Assembly (NCBI RefSeq): GCF_000160775.2
Contig: NZ_CM001024.1
Location: 719,016-783,015 of the forward strand
Origin: Aeromicrobium marinum DSM 15272
GTDB lineage: Bacteria; Actinomycetota; Actinomycetes; Propionibacteriales; Nocardioidaceae
DNA: 64,000 bases
Direction: 5' to 3'
Shown: positions 4,285-15,673 of the stretch, piece after piece
How the letters are laid out: every line of letters starts with the position of its first letter
Numbering within the stretch: the first letter of the stretch is position 1
Translations under genes and position numbers: made by a program
Notes under the pieces: generated by a model
What the model was told of the DNA's origin: nothing
Databases searched by the model: none
The model's input: only the letters and a program-made list of their open reading frames with translations

Positions 4285-6831
4285 ATGACGGACTCAGACC
4301 AGAACCCGGCGTCCGATCGCATGCGATCGGACCCCCTGCAGGTCGCCGCGGACGTCCTGAACAGTCGGGACAGCGACGAGGCCGAGGCCACTGCTGCAGC
4401 GGACGAGGACCGATCCCTGAGCCCGCGCGAGCGGCGGGCCGCGGCTCGTGCTGCCAAGGCTGCTGCCCTCGAACAGCGTCGCCAGGAGCGAGCCGCAGCG
4501 CGCGCGCAGCGCGGTCGCCGTGGGGCCAGGGCCGACGACTCCCAGGACACCGACCCCGATGACGGCGACGAGTCCACGTCGCACGAGGAGCCCTCCGCCG
4601 AGACCGCTTCGGCGTCCGACGACCACCGGGCCGACGAGAAGCCGGCCGAGCAGACCCTTGCGCAGAAGCTCGAGGCCGCCCGGTCCGCAGCCTCGACGCC
4701 GCCCGACCAGATCGCTGCCGAGCTCGACGCCGACCCGGTCGTCGTCGAGGACGACGGACTGCCGAGCTGGTCGTCGTGGTCCCGTCCGGAGCCGGAGCCC
4801 GAGAAGCCGGCCGAGATGACGCTCGGATCGCGCCTGGCCGCGTTGCGAGCCCCGGTGACCGCCGCACAGGCCGCCGCCGAGACGCCGGACGCCGAGGTCG
4901 AGCCCGACGCCGACCCGCAGCTCGATGAGGCAGCCGGGTCCGCGCCGGAAGCTGGCGCCACGGTTCCGGAGCCCGAGCAGACGCCCGAGGTCGAGCCGGA
5001 GCCGGTCGCCGAGCCGGTGGCCGAGCAGGAGCCCGAGCCCGAACCGGTGGCCGAGCAGCAGCCCGAGCCCGAACCGGTGGCCGAGCAGCAGCCCGAGCCC
5101 GAACCGGTGGCCGAGCAGGCTCCGGCCGCATCGTCGGAGTTCACCTTCGACGCCGACCCGCCCGCGCAGCCTGCTGCCGGGCCGACCTTCGCCGAGAAGC
5201 TCGCGGCGGCGAGCGCCGCTGCTCAGCAGCGTGTCGCGGCTGCCCGTGCCGAGGCCTCGCGCCTGATGGACGAGGCTGCCCGCGAGCGGGCCGAGGTCGC
5301 CGCCAGGCTCGAGGCCGACGAGACCACCCAGCGGGAGCTGGCCCAGGCCACCCTCCGCGCGGCCGAGCAGGCGGCCGAGGAGCGCGTGGCCGCCGCCCGC
5401 TCCGAGGCCGACCGTGTCGCCCGCGAGATCGAGCGCGAGCGCGAGGCGGCCGCCGCCAAGATCGCCGAGCTCCAGCTCGCCGCCGACCAGCGGGTCGAGG
5501 CCGCACGCGCCGACGCCGAGCGGCAGGCCCAGCAGCGCATCGCCGAGGCCACCGCAGAGGCCCAGCGCCTCGCCGAGGAGTCCGAGGCCCAGGTCAAGGC
5601 CACGGCCGAGCGCCGCATGGCCGAGGCGGAGGCAGCAGCCGAGGAGGCCGCGCAACGTCGACTCGAGGCCGCCGAGGCCGATGCTCAGCGTCAGATCGAC
5701 CAGGCACGTGCCGCGGCCGACGAGGTCGCACGCAAGGCTGCTGAGGACCGCGAGGCCGCCCTCGCGCAGCTGGGCCAGGAGCGGGCCGACGGTGACGCCC
5801 GTCTGGCCGAGGTCACCGCCGAGGCCGAGCGGATCGTCAAGGAGGCCGAGCAGTCGTCGGCGGCCCACGTCGCCGCCGCCAAGGCCGAGGCCGAGAAGTA
5901 TGCGCAGGAGGTGGCGTCCGAGCGGGTCGCGATCGCCGTGCGCATCGCCGATGCCGAGCGTCAGGCCGAGGAGAAGCTGGTGGCGGCCAAGGTCGAGGCC
6001 GAGCGCCTGGCTTCCGCCGCCGCCGTCCGGCACGAGGAGGCTGCGGCCGAGCTGGCCCGCGAGCGCGACGAGGCGAAGCTGCTGGTCGAGCGCGCGAACG
6101 CCGAGGCGGAGAAGCTGGCTCGCGACGCAGAGGCGCAGCGCGTCGAGGCGGCAGCCCGACTGGCCGACGCCGAGCGGCAGGCCGAGGAACGCGTCCGGCT
6201 GGCCCAGGCGGAGGCCGAGCGGGTCGCTGCCGAGGCGGCGGAGGCCGCCCGGGTGGCCGCAGAGGCGCGGGCCGACGCCGAGCGTCGCCAGCACGCCGAG
6301 GCAGAGGCGGCCCGGCAGGACGCCGAGCGCAAGGTCGCCGAGGCCGAGCGTGACGCCGCCGAACGGGTGGCCCAGGCCCAGGAGGAGGCCCGCCGGGTCG
6401 CCGCGCAGGCCGAGGCGGACGCCCAGCAGCGGGTCGCCGAGGCGCGCGCCGAGGCCGAGCGACTCACCGCGGAGTCCAAGCGGGATGCGCAGGACCGGCT
6501 CAGCCGCGCGGTCGCTGCCGCGCGTGAGGCCGCCGAGCAGAAGCTGCAGGAGGCCGAGCGCACGGCCATGGAGTGGGTCGCTGCTGCCGAGGCGGAGGCC
6601 GAGCGGGTCGCGCAGTCCCACATCGTCATGGCCAACCAGTCGGCGAAGGAATCCAGCTTCGCTGCACCGGCGCCCGCCGTGGAGGAGTTCGTCGACGAGC
6701 CCGCCGCAGACCCCGAGCAGGACCAGCCTGATGCAGGCGAGACCGCCGAGGGCGAATCGCTCCGGGAGGTGAATGACGAGTCCGGAGCCCTCGCCCCCCC
6801 GACCAAAAAAAGAAACATCCGACGCAGCTGA
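4285..6831 (+). CDS. Large Ala/Glu-rich coiled-coil protein
   Basis: An 848-residue protein with no enzymatic domain that I recognise. Residues 1-120 are charged, with an Arg/Ala helix [13 protein letters not shown] short motif T(L/F)xxKLxAxR recurs at about 122, 177 and 299. Residues 240-285 contain the tandem ([10 protein letters not shown]) repeat. From about 299 to 785 the protein is almost uninterrupted AEAERxA-type coiled coil, comparable in style to actinobacterial polar scaffold proteins (DivIVA/Scy-like) or F0F1 b-subunit-like stalks. No transmembrane segment is seen. GGAG precedes the ATG. CATACT at 4236-4241 is a candidate -10. Its last 59 nt overlap the next gene in the +1 frame across C7 and A7 runs. 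A cytoskeletal or envelope scaffold role is inference. Confidence 0.75.
5014..5120 (+). repeat. In-frame 30-bp tandem repeat encoding [10 protein letters not shown]
   Basis: CCGGTGGCCGAGCAG followed by a Glu/Pro-coding half recurs at 5014, 5044, 5074 and 5104, a strict 30-bp period. The two central units are identical, which points to recent slippage or recombination in the coiled-coil gene. Confidence 0.85.
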
Positions 6832-8161
6832 CCTGACCCGGGCCGACCCGATCGCCGCTGCCGCCGCGAGCTTCGCTGCGGCAGGAGAAGCCGTCGTTCC
6901 TCCCGAGGACGATCCGGAGGAGACCCCGCGGCGCCGGTGGGCGCCGTTCCGGGCGCCGACGGCCGGTGACATCGTCGCGGACGACGACGCCGATCAGTCC
7001 GCCGACGCCGAGGCGGACGACACCGGCACGCAGGAGGGTCTCGCGTCGGAGTCGACGGAGGCCCCGCAGGCGGTCGAGGACGTCCGGATCGACCTCACCG
7101 TGGTCGACGAGACCACGGGGGACGGCGATCCCGAGCCCGTCGAGCAGCTGACCCCGCGGCAGCGGGCTCTGCAGGAGCGACAGGTCGCGCGGCGGGAGCG
7201 ACAGGAGGCCCGCGCTGCGGCCGCTGTCGCCCGGCGCGAGGCCAAGATCGCCCGACGCGAGCAGCGGCGACGTGCCCCGAAGCCGGCCGTGCAGGAGACC
7301 GCTGACGACGCACCGGTGGACGCCGTGCCCGTCGAGGACGAGGCCGCCGTCGAGGAGGCCCTGGTCGAGGAGATCCTCGCGGTCGAATCGACCGAGCCGG
7401 AGCCGGAGCCGGAACCGGAGCCGGAGCCGGAACCTGAGCCGGAGCCGGAGCCGGAGCCCGAGCCGGAGCCGGAGCCCGAGCCGGAGCCGGAACCTGAGCC
7501 GGAGCCGGAGCCGGAGCCGGAGCCCGAGCCGGAACCCGAGCCCGAGCCGGAACCCGAGCCCGAGCCGGAACCCGAGCCCGAGCCGGAACCCGAGCCGGAG
7601 CCCGAACCTGAGCCGGACCCCGAGCCCGAACCGGTCGAGGTCCGCGACACGGGCGACGAGCGAGCCGCCCGCAAGGCCGAGAAGCTCGAGGCCAAGCGGC
7701 AGGCGGCCGAGGAGCGCGCGGCCCGCAAGGCCGGCGCCGCGGCGGACAAGCTGCGTCGCCGCGAGGAGAAGCAGCAGGCCAAGGCTGCCCAGGTCGCCGA
7801 AGCCCGTCACGACGAGGTGCCGGAACCTCCGGATCTCCCCGGTGGCAACGGCACCACGAAGAAGGCGCTCGCGGCCGCAGCCGCGGTCGTGGGCGCGGCG
7901 GGACTCATCTTCTCGGTCGTCCTGGCGGTCGGCGCCCTGATCGTGGCGCTGGGCGCCGACGGCGGAGGGTTCTTCGGCGCACTCGAGTCCGTGTGCAACG
8001 TGCTCACCGGTCCGCTGCAGGGTCTGGTCGACTTCAGCGGCACGAACGCCGACAAGAAGGAATCACTCGTCGCGTGGGGTCTGGGATCGATGATCTACCT
8101 CGTGGTGGGTCTGGCGGCACAGTCGGTGCTGCGGGCACGGGTCGAGGCCGCGCCCCGCTGA
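6773..8161 (+). CDS. (Glu-Pro)n-rich protein with C-terminal membrane domain
   Basis: A 462-residue protein. The first 130 residues are acidic and disordered. There follow basic Arg/Ala helices ([16 protein letters not shown]) and an (EP)n stretch of roughly 80 residues at about 208-288. A second basic helix [13 protein letters not shown] comes next, and a membrane domain with two hydrophobic helices at about 362-390 and 437-455. The segment between the helices ([15 protein letters not shown]) looks extracytoplasmic. It starts inside the preceding coiled-coil gene in another frame. GGGAGG at 6764-6769 is only 3 nt from the ATG, so translation is probably coupled. The proteins share Arg/Ala charged helices and may form one complex. 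Function unknown. Confidence 0.75.
7394..7635 (+). repeat. GAGCCG hexanucleotide microsatellite, (Glu-Pro)n
   Basis: About 240 bp of GAGCCG/GAGCCC/GAACCG/GAACCC units encode an unbroken Glu-Pro dipeptide array. Codon wobble (GAG/GAA, CCG/CCC) differs between units, so the array is purified for protein sequence rather than being a fresh DNA expansion. Such arrays form extended rods that span the periplasm in TonB-like proteins. Confidence 0.9.
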
Positions 8162-10343: not shown

Positions 10344-11975
10344 ATGCGTCTCACTCGGCGTAATCGCCTGACGGGCCTGGTGGCGGCAGTCGCTGCCAGC
10401 AGCTTGGTCCTGGCAGCCTGCTCAGGCGGGGACGACAGCGGCGGAGGTGACTCCGACTCGTTCCAGATCGCCTACAACGGCGACGGCGGACACGACGCCT
10501 GGGTCGACGCGGTCTCCAACCAGCTGCGCAACAACCTGGACATCGACGCCTCGGGCCGCTCCTACGCGACCTTCGACGAGCTGCGCAACGACGTGGTCGA
10601 CCGGACGATCACGACGGCCTTCCGCACCGGCTGGCAGCCGGACTACCCGTCGATCTACAACTACCTGCAGCCGCTCTACTTCACCGGAGCCGGCTCCAAC
10701 GACGGCGACTACTCCAGCGAGGAGTTCGACGACCTCATGACGCAGGTCTCCGGCGCCCAGGAGCAGGCCGAGGCGTTCAGCCTGCAGGAGCAGGCCCAGG
10801 AGGTCCTGCTGCAGGACCTGCCGGCCATCCCGCTGTGGTACTCCAACGTCGCCGCGGTCGCCGCCCTCGACGTCGAGAACGTGTCCTTCACGTGGCAGAA
10901 CCTGCCCGACTACGTGTCCATCAGCAAGCCCGAGGGCGGACCCATCACGGTCGACGGCTCGCAGCCGCAGAACCCGTTGGTGCCCTCGGCGACCAACGAG
11001 ACCGGTGGCGGCAACGTCATCGACAACCTGTGGGAGGGCCTGGTCCGCTACGAGTCCGACGGCACCGCGGTCAACGCCGTGGCCGAGTCGATCACCTCCG
11101 AGGACAACCTCACCTGGACCGTGGTCATCAAGGACGGTCAGCAGTTCGCGGACGGCACCCCCGTCACGGCCAGCTCCTTCGTGGATGCCTGGAACTACGG
11201 CGCGGTGGGCTCCAACGCCCAGCTGAACTCGTACTTCTACTACCCGATCGCCGGATTCGACGAGGCGCAGGCCGACGAGGCCGACGGCCTGTCCGGTCTG
11301 ACCGTGGTCGACGACTCGACGTTCACCATCGAGCTGAACCAGCCCGAGGCGAGCTTCCCGGACCGTCTGGGCTACTCGGCGTTCTACCCGCTGCCCGCGA
11401 CGGCCTTCGACGACCTGGAGGCCTTCGGCCGCAACCCGATCGGCAACGGCGTGTACCGCCTGGCCGGCCCGGACGCCTGGGAGGACGACGTCCGCATCTC
11501 GCTGGTCCCCAACGAGAACTACGTGGGTGACGTCGTCCCGGCCAACGACGGCATCACCTTCACCTTCTACACGAACCTGGACGCCGCCTACACCGACGTG
11601 CAGGCCGGCAACCTCGACGTGCTGAAGACCGTGCCCGACAGTGCTCTGACGACCTACGAGACGGACGAGAACGTGCAGTCGTTCAACGTGCCCGGCTCGG
11701 TGTTCCAGTCGTTCACCATCCCGTTCTCGCTCGAGCACTTCGGCGACGACGAGGAGGGTCGTCTGCGTCGTCAGGCGATCAGCCTGGCGATCAACCGTGA
11801 GGAGATCACCGACGCGATCTTCAACGGCAGCCGCACGCCGGCGCGGGACTTCAGCTCGCCGGTCATGCCCGGGTACAACGACGCCCTGGAGGGCAGCGAC
11901 GTGCTCGAGTTCGATCCCGAGCGGGCCAAGGACCTGTGGGAGCAGGCCAACGAGATCAACCCGTGGAACGGCTGA
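10344..11975 (+). CDS. Oligopeptide ABC transporter substrate-binding lipoprotein, circularly permuted
   Basis: A 543-residue family-5 (OppA/DppA-like) binding lipoprotein. The signal peptide ends in a lipobox LVLAAC (Cys26), followed by a Gly/Ser/Asp linker. The order of the mature domains is wrong for the family. Residues about 39-196, from SFQIAYNGDGGHDAW to the LPAIPLWYSN...DYVSISK tail, are what normally ends such proteins. Residues about 204-543, beginning SQPQNPLVPSATNETGGG and ending DLWEQANEINPWNG, are what normally begins and fills them. Joining the present C-terminus (NPWNG) to SFQIAYN restores the canonical order exactly. Nothing is duplicated or missing and total length is normal. 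Both junctions are in frame. It heads an operon with two permeases and a double ATPase. Substrate is probably short peptides. Confidence 0.9.
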   Translation: MRLTRRNRLTGLVAAVAASSLVLAACSGGDDSGGGDSDSFQIAYNGDGGHDAWVDAVSNQLRNNLDIDASGRSYATFDELRNDVVDRTITTAFRTGWQPDYPSIYNYLQPLYFTGAGSNDGDYSSEEFDDLMTQVSGAQEQAEAFSLQEQAQEVLLQDLPAIPLWYSNVAAVAALDVENVSFTWQNLPDYVSISKPEGGPITVDGSQPQNPLVPSATNETGGGNVIDNLWEGLVRYESDGTAVNAVAESITSEDNLTWTVVIKDGQQFADGTPVTASSFVDAWNYGAVGSNAQLNSYFYYPIAGFDEAQADEADGLSGLTVVDDSTFTIELNQPEASFPDRLGYSAFYPLPATAFDDLEAFGRNPIGNGVYRLAGPDAWEDDVRISLVPNENYVGDVVPANDGITFTFYTNLDAAYTDVQAGNLDVLKTVPDSALTTYETDENVQSFNVPGSVFQSFTIPFSLEHFGDDEEGRLRRQAISLAINREEITDAIFNGSRTPARDFSSPVMPGYNDALEGSDVLEFDPERAKDLWEQANEINPWNG

Positions 11976-12014
11976 CCCACCCGGTCTGACCCGTCCCGTC
12001 TGATCTGCACGACG

Positions 12015-12052
12015 GTCGCGTGGGGTGGCGCTGCGGCGCCACCCCACGCGAC
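12015..12052 (+). terminator. Strong intercistronic hairpin between binding protein and permeases
   Basis: GTCGCGTGGGGTGGCG (12015-12030) and CGCCACCCCACGCGAC (12037-12052) form a perfect 16-bp stem with a 6-nt loop. The position, between a binding-protein gene and its permease genes, fits partial termination or 3' protection giving excess binding protein. Confidence 0.75.
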
Positions 12053-12088
12053 CTCTCGTGATCGGCAATCCCGGCCCAGGAGGCTCCC

Positions 12089-13015
12089 GTGTGGTGGTAC
12101 GTCGGCAAGCGGTTGCTCCAGACCATCCCGGTGGTCCTCGGAGCAACGTTCATCATCTACGCGCTGGTGTTCCTGCGCCCGGGTGACCCGGTGGGTGCGT
12201 TGTTCGGTGACAAGCCGGTCAGCGAGGCCGTCAAGGCCCAGATCGAGATGCAGTACAACCTCGACAAGCCCTTCGTCGTGCAGTGGCTGTTGTTCCTCAA
12301 GGACGCGCTGACGCTCGACTTCGGCACCGCCTTCAGCGGCCGGCCGGTCACCGACCTGCTCGCGAGCGCCTTCCCGGTCACGTTGAAACTGGCCGGCATG
12401 GCCCTGGTCATCGAGATGGTGCTCGGCGTCATCGCCGGCACGATCGCCGGTCTGCGCCGGGGCAAGCTGTTCGACTCCACCATGCTCGTGACCTCGCTGC
12501 TGGTCATCGCGGTGCCGATCTTCGTGTTCGGCTTCCTGCTGCAGCTGATCGTCGGCGTCCAGCTGGGGTGGGCCCCGCCGACGGTGGGCGGCGAGGCCTC
12601 CTTCCGCAACCTGCTGCTGCCGGCCATCGTGCTGGGACTCGTCTCGTTCGCGTACGTGCTGCGCCTGACGCGCACCGCGGTCTCGGAGAACCTGACCGCC
12701 GACCACGTCCGCACGGCACGGGCCAAGGGCCTGTCCGAACGCACCGTGACCAACCGGCACGTGCTGCGCAACTCCCTGGTGCCCGTCGTGACGTTCCTCG
12801 GTGTCGACCTCGGCACGCTCATGGCCGGGGCGGTGGTCACCGAGGGCATCTTCAACATCCCCGGCGTCGGCGGTCTGGCCTTCGGGGCCATCCAACGAGG
12901 TGAGACCCCCACGATCGTCTCGGTCGTGACGGTGTTCGTGCTGATCTACGTCGCCACGAGCCTGATCGTCGACCTGCTGTACGCCGCACTCGACCCGAGG
13001 ATCCGCTATGTCTGA
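12089..13015 (+). CDS. Oligopeptide ABC transporter permease, DppB/OppB type
   Basis: A 308-residue inner-membrane permease starting at GTG 12089, with AGGAGG at 12078-12083. It shows the family's N-terminal helix (KRLLQTIPVVLGATFIIYALVFLRPGDPV) with the extracytoplasmic loop containing YNLDKPF. It then has five further hydrophobic helices and the cytoplasmic EAA-loop region ENLTADHVRTARAKGLSERTV, which docks on the ATPase. It ends ALDPRIRY, typical of DppB homologues. It overlaps the next permease by 8 nt. Confidence 0.94.
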   Translation: MWWYVGKRLLQTIPVVLGATFIIYALVFLRPGDPVGALFGDKPVSEAVKAQIEMQYNLDKPFVVQWLLFLKDALTLDFGTAFSGRPVTDLLASAFPVTLKLAGMALVIEMVLGVIAGTIAGLRRGKLFDSTMLVTSLLVIAVPIFVFGFLLQLIVGVQLGWAPPTVGGEASFRNLLLPAIVLGLVSFAYVLRLTRTAVSENLTADHVRTARAKGLSERTVTNRHVLRNSLVPVVTFLGVDLGTLMAGAVVTEGIFNIPGVGGLAFGAIQRGETPTIVSVVTVFVLIYVATSLIVDLLYAALDPRIRYV

Positions 13016-13982
13016 GACTCCCCGCCCCGGTCAGGAGCGTTGGGTCGCCCCGCTGGAGGAGACGCCCCTGCGCGCGGTCGACTCCGTCGACGACGACGCC
13101 CCGCCCGAGAGCCAGTGGAAGGAGGCCTGGAAGCGGATGCGGGTCAACCCGCTGTTCTGGGTGTCCAGCGTGCTGCTGTTCCTGCTGGCGATCATGCTGG
13201 CGGTGCCCGGGCTCTTCACCAGCCAGGACCCGACCTTCTGCCAGCTCAGCGACTCGCTCGGCCCGGCGCGCAGCGGCCATCCCTTCGGCTTCAACCAGCA
13301 GGGCTGCGACGTCTGGGCCCGCACCCTCTACGGGGCGCGCGCCTCGGTGCTCGTCGGCGTGGTCACGACCCTCATCGTCGCCCTGATCGGCGTCGTGACG
13401 GGTGCCGTGGCCGGCTTCTACGGCCGCTGGCTCGACGCGGTGATCTCGCGGATCGCCGACATCTTCTTCTCCATCCCGTTGCTGCTCGCCGCGATCGTGA
13501 CGCTCTCGGTGCTCAACAACGTCTTCCCGGACCGCGGCTTCTGGGGCGGCTGCATGGCGGTCATCCTGGCGCTGTCGTTGTTCGCGTGGCCCAGCATCAC
13601 CCGGCAGATGCGGGCCGCGGTGCTCACGGTGAAGAACCTTGAGTTCGTCGACGCGGCCAAGGCGATCGGCGCGTCGCCGCGGGCCAACCTGGTGCGGCAC
13701 ATCGTGCCCAACTCGTTGGCGCCGGTGATCGTCACCTCGACCATCTCGCTGGGCATCTTCATCGTCACCGAGGCGACCCTGTCGTTCCTGGGACTCGGGC
13801 TGCCCAACCAGGTGATCTCGTGGGGCAACGACATCTCCGACGCGCAGGTGCTGGTGCGGGCCGGTGACAACCTCTCGGTCATGTTCGTGCCCGCCACCGC
13901 CCTCGCGCTGACCGTGCTCGCGTTCATCCTGCTGGGTGATGCGGTCAAGGACGCGCTCGACCCGAAGGCGAGGAAGTCATGA
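13008..13982 (+). CDS. Oligopeptide ABC transporter permease, DppC/OppC type
   Basis: A 324-residue second permease. An N-terminal cytoplasmic tail of about 50 residues precedes the first helix (FWVSSVLLFLLAIMLAVP). The OppC-type extracytoplasmic segment GPARSGHPFGFNQQGCDVWARTLYGARASVLVG is present, followed by further helices and the EAA motif LEFVDAAKAIGASPRANLVRHIVPN. It ends ALDPKARK. The start overlaps the end of the first permease gene and its own stop overlaps the ATPase start (ATGA at 13979), so all three are translationally coupled. Confidence 0.94.
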   Translation: MSETPRPGQERWVAPLEETPLRAVDSVDDDAPPESQWKEAWKRMRVNPLFWVSSVLLFLLAIMLAVPGLFTSQDPTFCQLSDSLGPARSGHPFGFNQQGCDVWARTLYGARASVLVGVVTTLIVALIGVVTGAVAGFYGRWLDAVISRIADIFFSIPLLLAAIVTLSVLNNVFPDRGFWGGCMAVILALSLFAWPSITRQMRAAVLTVKNLEFVDAAKAIGASPRANLVRHIVPNSLAPVIVTSTISLGIFIVTEATLSFLGLGLPNQVISWGNDISDAQVLVRAGDNLSVMFVPATALALTVLAFILLGDAVKDALDPKARKS

Positions 13983-15673
13983 GCACCCCCCTGCTGGAGG
14001 TCCGCGACCTGAGCGTCGCCTTCCGCGACGGCAAGGATCTCGTCCCGGCGGTCAGCGGCGCCAGTCTGACCGTGTACCCGGGGCAGACCGTGGCCATCGT
14101 CGGCGAGTCCGGCTCCGGCAAGTCCACCACGGCGCACGCCGTGATCGGTCTGCTGCCGGGCACCGGAGAGGTCACCGGCGGCGAGATCCTGTTCGAGGGC
14201 AAGGACATCGCGCACGCCCGCAGACGTGACATCGTCGCCCTGCGCGGCTCGTCGATCGGGCTGGTCCCTCAGGACCCGATGTCGAACCTCAACCCGCTGT
14301 GGCGGGTCGGCCGGCAGATCAAGGAGTCGTTGGTCGCCAACGACGTCGCGACCGGCAAGGCCGCCGATCGGCGGGTCGTCGAGCTGCTCGAGGAGGCCGG
14401 CCTGCCCGACGCCGACCGGCGGGCGCGACAGTTCCCCCACGAGTTCTCCGGCGGCATGCGGCAGCGGGCGCTGATCGCGATGGGTCTGGCGGCGCGACCG
14501 AAGCTGCTGATCGCCGACGAGCCCACCTCCGCGCTCGACGTGACGGTGCAGAAGCAGATCCTCGACCACCTCGAGACGCTGACCGCCGACCTCGGGGTCG
14601 CGGTGCTGCTCATCACCCACGACCTGGGCCTCGCCGCGGAGCGGGCCGACCACCTCGTGGTGATGTACCGCGGTCGCGTGGTGGAGTCCGGTCCGGCCCT
14701 GGAGATCCTCACGGATCCGCGCCACCCCTACACCCGGCGCCTCGTGTCGTCGGCGCCGTCGTTGGCCTCGCAGCGGTTGTCGTCGCAGCAGGCCCGCACC
14801 GAGGTGCGCGAGGCCGCGACCGAGGTGCCCGGCACCGACACCGCGTCCACCCGCGACGACGTCATCGTGGTCGAGGACCTCACCAAGGTGTTCAAGCTCC
14901 CGGGCAAGGGGCCGTTCTCCTCGACCGACTTCACCGCGGTCGACGACGTGTCGTTCCGCCTGCCGCGGGGCACGACGACGGCGATCGTGGGCGAGTCGGG
15001 ATCGGGCAAGTCCACCGTCGCCCGGATGGTGCTGGGGCTGCTGGAGCCGACCTCGGGAACGGTCAGGTTCGACGGCGTCGACGTCTCCACGGTGTCGGGC
15101 AAGGGCGCGCAACTGCAGCTGCGGCGTCGGATGCAGCCGGTGTTCCAGAACCCGTACGCCTCGCTCGATCCGATCTACACGATCTACCGCTCGATCGAGG
15201 AGCCCCTGCGCACCCATGGCATCGGCACCGACGCCGAGCGGGAGGCCAAGATCCGGCAGCTGCTCGACCAGGTGTCGCTGCCGACGACGGTCATGAGCCG
15301 GTTCCCGCACGAGCTGTCCGGCGGCCAGCGTCAGCGGGTGGCGATCGCGCGGGCCCTCGCACTCGATCCCGAGGTCGTCATCTGCGACGAGGCGGTGTCG
15401 GCGCTCGACGTGCTGGTGCAGGCGCAGATCCTGTCGCTGCTCAACGACCTGCAGGCCGAGCTGGGGCTCAGCTACCTGTTCATCACCCACGACCTGGCGG
15501 TCGTGCGGCAGATCGCCGACGACGTGCTGGTCATGCAGGACGGCCGGATCGTGGAGGCGGCGAGCGTCACCGAGGTGTTCGACTCCCCGCGGGAGCCGTA
15601 CACCCGGGCGCTGCTGGACGCCATCCCGGGCGGTTCGATCCCCATCGGCGTGGTCGAGGCGGGCGACGACTAG
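13979..15673 (+). CDS. Oligopeptide ABC transporter, fused double ATP-binding protein (DppD-DppF type)
   Basis: A 564-residue protein with two complete nucleotide-binding domains that in many bacteria are separate proteins. Domain 1 (about 1-260) has Walker A GESGSGKSTT, a signature FSGGMRQRALIA and Walker B LLIADEPTSALD. Domain 2 (about 290-555) has Walker A GESGSGKSTV, a signature LSGGQRQRVAIA and VVICDEAVSALD. Here Pro of the usual DEP is Ala, giving DEAVSALD as often seen in DppF. Both switch histidines are present (ITHDLGLA, ITHDLAVV). A linker at about 265-290 joins the domains. It energises the two permeases. Confidence 0.95.
   Translation: MSTPLLEVRDLSVAFRDGKDLVPAVSGASLTVYPGQTVAIVGESGSGKSTTAHAVIGLLPGTGEVTGGEILFEGKDIAHARRRDIVALRGSSIGLVPQDPMSNLNPLWRVGRQIKESLVANDVATGKAADRRVVELLEEAGLPDADRRARQFPHEFSGGMRQRALIAMGLAARPKLLIADEPTSALDVTVQKQILDHLETLTADLGVAVLLITHDLGLAAERADHLVVMYRGRVVESGPALEILTDPRHPYTRRLVSSAPSLASQRLSSQQARTEVREAATEVPGTDTASTRDDVIVVEDLTKVFKLPGKGPFSSTDFTAVDDVSFRLPRGTTTAIVGESGSGKSTVARMVLGLLEPTSGTVRFDGVDVSTVSGKGAQLQLRRRMQPVFQNPYASLDPIYTIYRSIEEPLRTHGIGTDAEREAKIRQLLDQVSLPTTVMSRFPHELSGGQRQRVAIARALALDPEVVICDEAVSALDVLVQAQILSLLNDLQAELGLSYLFITHDLAVVRQIADDVLVMQDGRIVEAASVTEVFDSPREPYTRALLDAIPGGSIPIGVVEAGDD

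Follow-up and report, generated by a model that had tools for sequence, protein, structure and literature searches.

The window, a stretch of 64,000 nucleotides from the single-contig genome (3.08 Mb) of Aeromicrobium marinum DSM 15272, contains a gene for a family-5 (DppA-type) binding lipoprotein that is completely circularly permuted behind a signal peptide that has kept its place. In our preferred reading, to which we assign a probability of roughly 0.85, the gene would encode a functional DppA of a Dpp/Opp-type ABC importer and would have been permuted in place, as appears to have happened recurrently elsewhere. A first-pass annotation of this DNA had described the swap in the one gene; beyond that, the same arrangement is present in five groups of Actinomycetota, and it seems to have originated at one and the same loop on several occasions.

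Comparison of the window protein with canonical family members revealed the swapped order in three ways: (i) Mycobacterium tuberculosis DppA (7jls) matches it in two swapped blocks (E 5.5e-150 overall), chain residues 30-379 corresponding to window residues 200-543 and chain residues 381-538 to residues 40-197; (ii) in BLASTP against canonical proteins from the own genus or family, residues 56-401 and 400-558 of L004 pair with window residues 201-543 and 37-195 at 68 and 70% identity, respectively; and (iii) the canonical protein L203 adds a third block that pairs the signal peptides, window residues 1-37 with L203 residues 33-71. These are the two off-diagonal blocks that the first-pass annotation had anticipated for such an alignment, and the boundaries that it gave for the reading frame are correct (Table 1). 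Its junctions, placed near 10455 and 10935, were close; we place one seam after residue 39 (about 10460) and the other at residues 196-200 (10929-10943). Every segment of the canonical mature protein is present once, in frame, and loss or duplication is confined to linker residues, so that the original description of a swap with nothing duplicated or lost holds apart from these.

Table 1. Features of the permuted receptor gene and its operon, in window coordinates
Feature	Coordinates	Strand	Basis
Circularly permuted DppA-type (SBP family 5) lipoprotein, 543 aa	10344..11975	+	ORF translation, structure-database match, BLASTP
Lipoprotein signal peptide, up to lipobox Cys26 (10419-10421)	10344..10421	+	Like canonical signal peptides of own genus
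Gly/Ser/Asp-rich linker, residues 27-39, before new N-terminus of folded part	10422..10460	+	
Canonical C-terminal segment, residues 40-195, with W97 and D100	10461..10928	+	Alignment
Join PEGGP, residues 196-200, old C-terminus to old N-terminus	10929..10943	+	
Canonical N-terminal segment, residues 201-543; new C-terminus INPWNG	10944..11972	+	Alignment
Strong hairpin between receptor gene and first permease gene	12014..12053	+	
DppB-like permease (BPD_transp_1)	12089..13015	+	Pfam
DppC-like permease (OppC_N, BPD_transp_1)	13008..13982	+	Pfam
DppD-DppF-like double ATPase (two ABC_tran stretches, oligo_HPY)	13979..15673	+	Pfam

The Pfam profile SBP_bac_5 scores 193.2 bits on the window protein (cut-off 32.4) and matches it as far as position 279 of its 368 positions, the remaining part sitting in front. 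The assignment to SBP family 5 (cluster C) is thus made on a match that does not cover the whole profile in canonical order. The match ends at position 277 in four other permuted proteins that were scanned and reaches 367 in one canonical protein; such truncated hits suggest that automatic annotation can hide permuted cases. Among the best 60 of 69 PDB matches of the window protein, the top ones are DppA and OppA proteins, and no MglB-kind glucose/galactose receptor, as would be expected of a cluster B relative, is named. After rotation, the homology to M. tuberculosis DppA (7jls, 8wd9 and 6e3d), a canonical lipoprotein of cluster C and SBP family 5, extends throughout the mature protein. Both are lipoproteins with the pocket tryptophan and aspartate; the window protein differs in that its segments are swapped and its anchor leads into the C-terminal half.

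In total, 45 genomes carry the swapped order, at 47 distinct loci (54 entries before removal of repeats). These belong to five groups: the own genus (Aeromicrobium), Microbacterium, Sanguibacter, two metagenome-assembled genomes (MAGs) of the Bifidobacteriaceae set, and genus g153. Relatives are 34-74% identical to the window protein and have the same seams. That 44 further genomes share order and seams, single-contig assemblies among them, rules out both chance and an assembly chimera in the window genome, and answers the call of the first-pass annotation for other genomes with this arrangement.

Within the groups, the permuted order was observed in at least 4 of 49 genomes of the own genus (46 of the 49 have any match), at least 7 of 366 Microbacterium genomes, at least 5 of 6 genomes in the genus of Sanguibacter suarezii, at least 2 of 18 in the Bifidobacteriaceae set (4 loci), and at least 27 of 49 in g153. 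The other 22 genomes of g153 comprise 5 with the canonical order, 2 with broken permuted copies and 15 lacking a match at E 1e-50. A search of 213 genomes from the family of g153 gave a match at E 1e-90 in 130; the permuted order was seen in 27 of these, and every one belongs to g153. At L228 and L229 (genomes G1407 and G1433) the permuted genes are broken, one by a frame break and the other by about 1.1 kb of intervening DNA. The permuted order is rare across broad samples: at least 2 of 393 genomes in a class-wide sample and at least 10 of 396 in the order of Microbacterium have it. The class, Microbacterium and Microbacterium-order counts are lower bounds, as three best candidates were scored in most genomes, at E cut-offs of 1e-60, 1e-130 and 1e-132, respectively. 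Sampling was directed at Actinomycetota, and one survey retained 80 of 579 related loci. In the own genus, Microbacterium and g153, canonical and permuted forms occur in different species of one genus. Genome G821 has three permuted receptors (L159, L169 and L170), one sharing just 34% identity with the window protein and two with no permease match in the fetched stretches; here, the permuted form may have been duplicated and diverged.

All five groups are opened at the same site, a short loop that reads W-(S/D)-G-x-F in canonical proteins, with variants present. The opening leaves a new C-terminus and a new start that reads F/L-x-I/L-A-Y-N in most rows, and the permuted protein ends 0-2 residues past the last aromatic residue at 44 of the 47 distinct loci. 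The join between the old termini, judged by eye, is about five residues long in four groups, where it often contains a DG or GG turn, and about eight residues long in g153. Of 18 permuted rows examined, 17 have a linker of 8-18 residues behind the lipobox; in g153 this linker is often longer.

Signal peptides, also compared by eye, fall into local types: MRLTRR in the own genus, VKRNK in Microbacterium, LKIRK in Sanguibacter and Cellulomonas, and a twin-arginine-like SRRxFG type in g153. The local canonical type is kept in four of the five groups; for the Bifidobacteriaceae group, visual comparison showed no clear local match. Permuted proteins of different groups resemble one another somewhat more than expected over their last residues, which rank second of 79 windows. 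This likeness was clearer before g153 joined the set and is weak after. Together with the similar joins it reflects either convergence or a trace of shared history; as a sign of one origin, the likeness at the new C-terminus was set aside, being weak with g153 included.

Pfam matches in the window identify two permeases, a double ATPase and ETF subunits, which bears out the earlier placement of the gene before two permeases and a double ATPase. The order etfB-etfA-receptor-dppB-dppC-dppDF is common to the window and to the three canonical and two permuted genomes fetched from the own genus; a third permuted contig ends within dppB. In each of the four permuted genomes of this genus, one of which (G001) is 83% complete, the permuted gene is the sole match at E 1e-40 or better. 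In this genus, the permuted gene replaces the canonical gene in the same operon. A ribosome-binding-like AGGAGG precedes the ATG of the receptor gene. Elsewhere in the window, the open reading frame at 6773-8161 encodes a protein with a long central Pro-Glu repeat and has no Pfam match.

The hairpin between the receptor and dppB genes is very stable and has no T run, and the spacer has a fold z-score of -5.2. It may adjust the expression of the receptor relative to the permeases. Of the receptor-permease spacers, 34 of 46 behind permuted genes and 122 of 141 behind canonical ones contain perfect inverted repeats of at least 7 bases, and in Microbacterium the hairpin of the dppB spacer has a local form common to both orders. 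A CTGA-rich sequence past the stop codon was observed in 18 of the 46 permuted spacers versus 40 of the 141 canonical ones.

Several features bear on whether the permuted gene has lost its function or is decaying. Residues W97 and D100 of the window protein align, with the same W-x-x-D spacing, to W442 and D445 of M. tuberculosis DppA, which are described as peptide-pocket residues in the part of the report available (PMC6751184). Counted over distinct loci, the pocket motif GWxxDYP is present in 43 of 47 receptors with the permuted order and in 132 of 146 with the canonical order. The dN/dS ratio is 0.18-0.49 for eight permuted pairs and 0.14 and 0.25 for two canonical pairs, as estimated by a simple count method that included the in-frame stretch before the start codon. 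Some loci do point towards decay: broken permuted copies occur in two g153 genomes, and among the 27 permuted genomes of g153 an in-frame lipobox is missing from two (L195 and L218) and the end is different in a third (L224). Against this stand the retained lipobox, pocket residues and operon, the low dN/dS, and the absence of any second match at E 1e-40 or better in the four own-genus genomes, and we consider decay as the general explanation very improbable. Judged from sequence, the permuted protein probably folds correctly and transports peptides.

The position of the cut predicts the consequence for the anchor. The halves of M. tuberculosis DppA are given as residues 1-249 (N-terminal) and 267-541 (C-terminal) in the text available from PMC6751184. 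Since the cut near residue 380 falls inside the C-terminal half, the lipid anchor should shift to the other lobe, from the N-lobe to the C-lobe; the relocation relative to the lobes proposed in the first-pass annotation follows from this position. In E. coli, the scoop motif of DppB is reported to fill the cleft between the receptor lobes (PMC12136057, as far as the accessible text goes). A search for convergent change in the DppB scoop region of the permuted groups gave no signal.

To count the origins, we compared trees of the receptor, of its two segments and of the DppB permease. The tree of 67 rotated receptors requires five changes (bootstrap range 5-5), with every permuted group forming one clade, and its starred branches alone force four changes. 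Earlier receptor trees without g153 showed four separate permuted clades, and in a quick tree the nearest relatives of the permuted proteins of g153 are the canonical proteins of g153. The first receptor tree left out L017 and L075 as short, L025 because it has just one segment, and rows identical to others; L170 (long branch) and distant outgroup rows were dropped from later trees. Both the 69-row and the 67-row set are selections from the rows. The DppB tree, built from 64 of the 67 rows (L003, L169 and L225 missing), also gives five changes, with an unsettled bootstrap range of 4-6, and its starred branches alone force three. The transfer of a whole operon from one permuted source was considered and rejected, as the permuted groups are separate in the DppB tree too. 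For the first four groups, the N-segment tree gives three changes; the C-segment tree gives five but is poorly resolved, is compatible with one origin, and splits the own-genus and Microbacterium groups.

AU tests, for which the groupings were picked after the first tree and the p values are uncorrected, rejected a single clade for the 19 permuted rows of the first four groups (p=5.2e-7, at a cost of 274.5 log units), as well as the pairs own genus and Microbacterium (p=2e-44), own genus and Sanguibacter (p=1e-35), Sanguibacter and Microbacterium (p=1e-73), g153 and own genus (p=2e-46), and g153 and Microbacterium (p=0.001). The pair g153 and Sanguibacter gave p=0.031, which would fail correction for several tests. 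Under the same uncorrected scheme, rejection was not reached for the Bifidobacteriaceae group paired with Sanguibacter (p=0.23) or with g153 (p=0.097). Given the separate placement in trees and the AU tests, three origins are well supported and four or five are likely; the Bifidobacteriaceae group could share its origin with another group. Reversals to the canonical order are a less economical alternative.

The trees also bear on a different history, in which a single ancient permutation passed between lineages by gene transfer, and each copy took on its local look afterwards, through gene conversion with the canonical genes already resident. The two Bifidobacteriaceae pairings that escaped rejection and the C-segment tree taken alone are compatible with it, as are the similar length and turn residues of the join in four groups and the slight excess likeness at the new C-terminus. 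Yet the groups are separate in the trees of the whole receptor and of the permease, the signal peptides look local in four groups, and g153 has a longer join and a different C-terminus. Moreover, both segments and the signal peptide would have to be converted several times without the canonical order ever being restored, and a second, same-strand copy of either segment was absent within 4 kb at the 233 loci with hits, counting copies of at least 25 query residues at more than 30% identity (query slices slightly shifted). We therefore regard transfer followed by conversion as unlikely.

Recurrent permutation in place, our preferred reading, would proceed as follows: (i) the signal peptide, the anchor cysteine, the upstream genes and the permease and ATPase genes stay put; (ii) the mature coding sequence is opened in a short loop of the C-terminal half, and the old ends are joined by about five residues; and (iii) the fold and the binding cleft should remain unchanged, so that peptides would be caught and handed to DppBC as before, with the membrane tether now attached via the C-lobe instead of the N-lobe. 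Because the signal peptide is fixed and the 3' spacer preserved, two routes suggest themselves: an internal tandem duplication may have been trimmed on both sides, or the C segment (about 470 bases) may have moved in a single step to a position behind the linker. The segment-copy search described above revealed no relics or intermediates.

Permutation of a lipoprotein is already known. Tp0684 (MglB-2) of Treponema pallidum is described, in the portion of the source available (PMC4990184), as a naturally circularly permuted glucose-binding lipoprotein of a proposed type Ic, or cluster Bc; its topology also occurs in relatives from treponemes and Gram-positive bacteria, and its authors suggest a link between permutation and anchoring. 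The window protein shares with Tp0684 the natural circular permutation of a lipid-anchored binding protein. As presented in that portion, Tp0684 has a cluster B sugar-binding fold and is treated as one family, whereas the window protein belongs to cluster C by sequence and the permuted proteins form several separate groups beside canonical orthologues. The recurrence is the notable part. A search of the literature on permuted binding proteins, with most subscription journals outside its coverage, returned no cluster C case and no recurrence in a binding protein. Permutation by duplication is documented for saposin/swaposin and DNA methyltransferases (PMC3320104), with which our proteins share a gene-encoded circular permutation of the whole protein. 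They differ from these cases, as outlined in the accessible text, in that no duplicated or partly truncated intermediate was found among our loci and the signal peptide stays in place.

As to why the same change should recur, we put forward tentatively, and with less than even confidence, that the move of the anchor from the N-lobe to the C-lobe may be advantageous in some envelopes or for some substrates. Natural selection would then have re-tethered the receptor by this means time after time, which would make the repeated permutation a case of convergent evolution of topology.

Whole-protein circular permutation is mostly known from pairs that parted long ago, and for this reason its mechanism and advantage are hard to test. 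Its apparent recurrence in related bacteria makes this rare rearrangement testable as a repeatable evolutionary event. Close canonical and permuted pairs, which in the own genus have the same operon and the same type of signal peptide, allow direct tests of the origin of the permuted gene, of the need for a functional intermediate, and of the effect of the anchoring site on transport.
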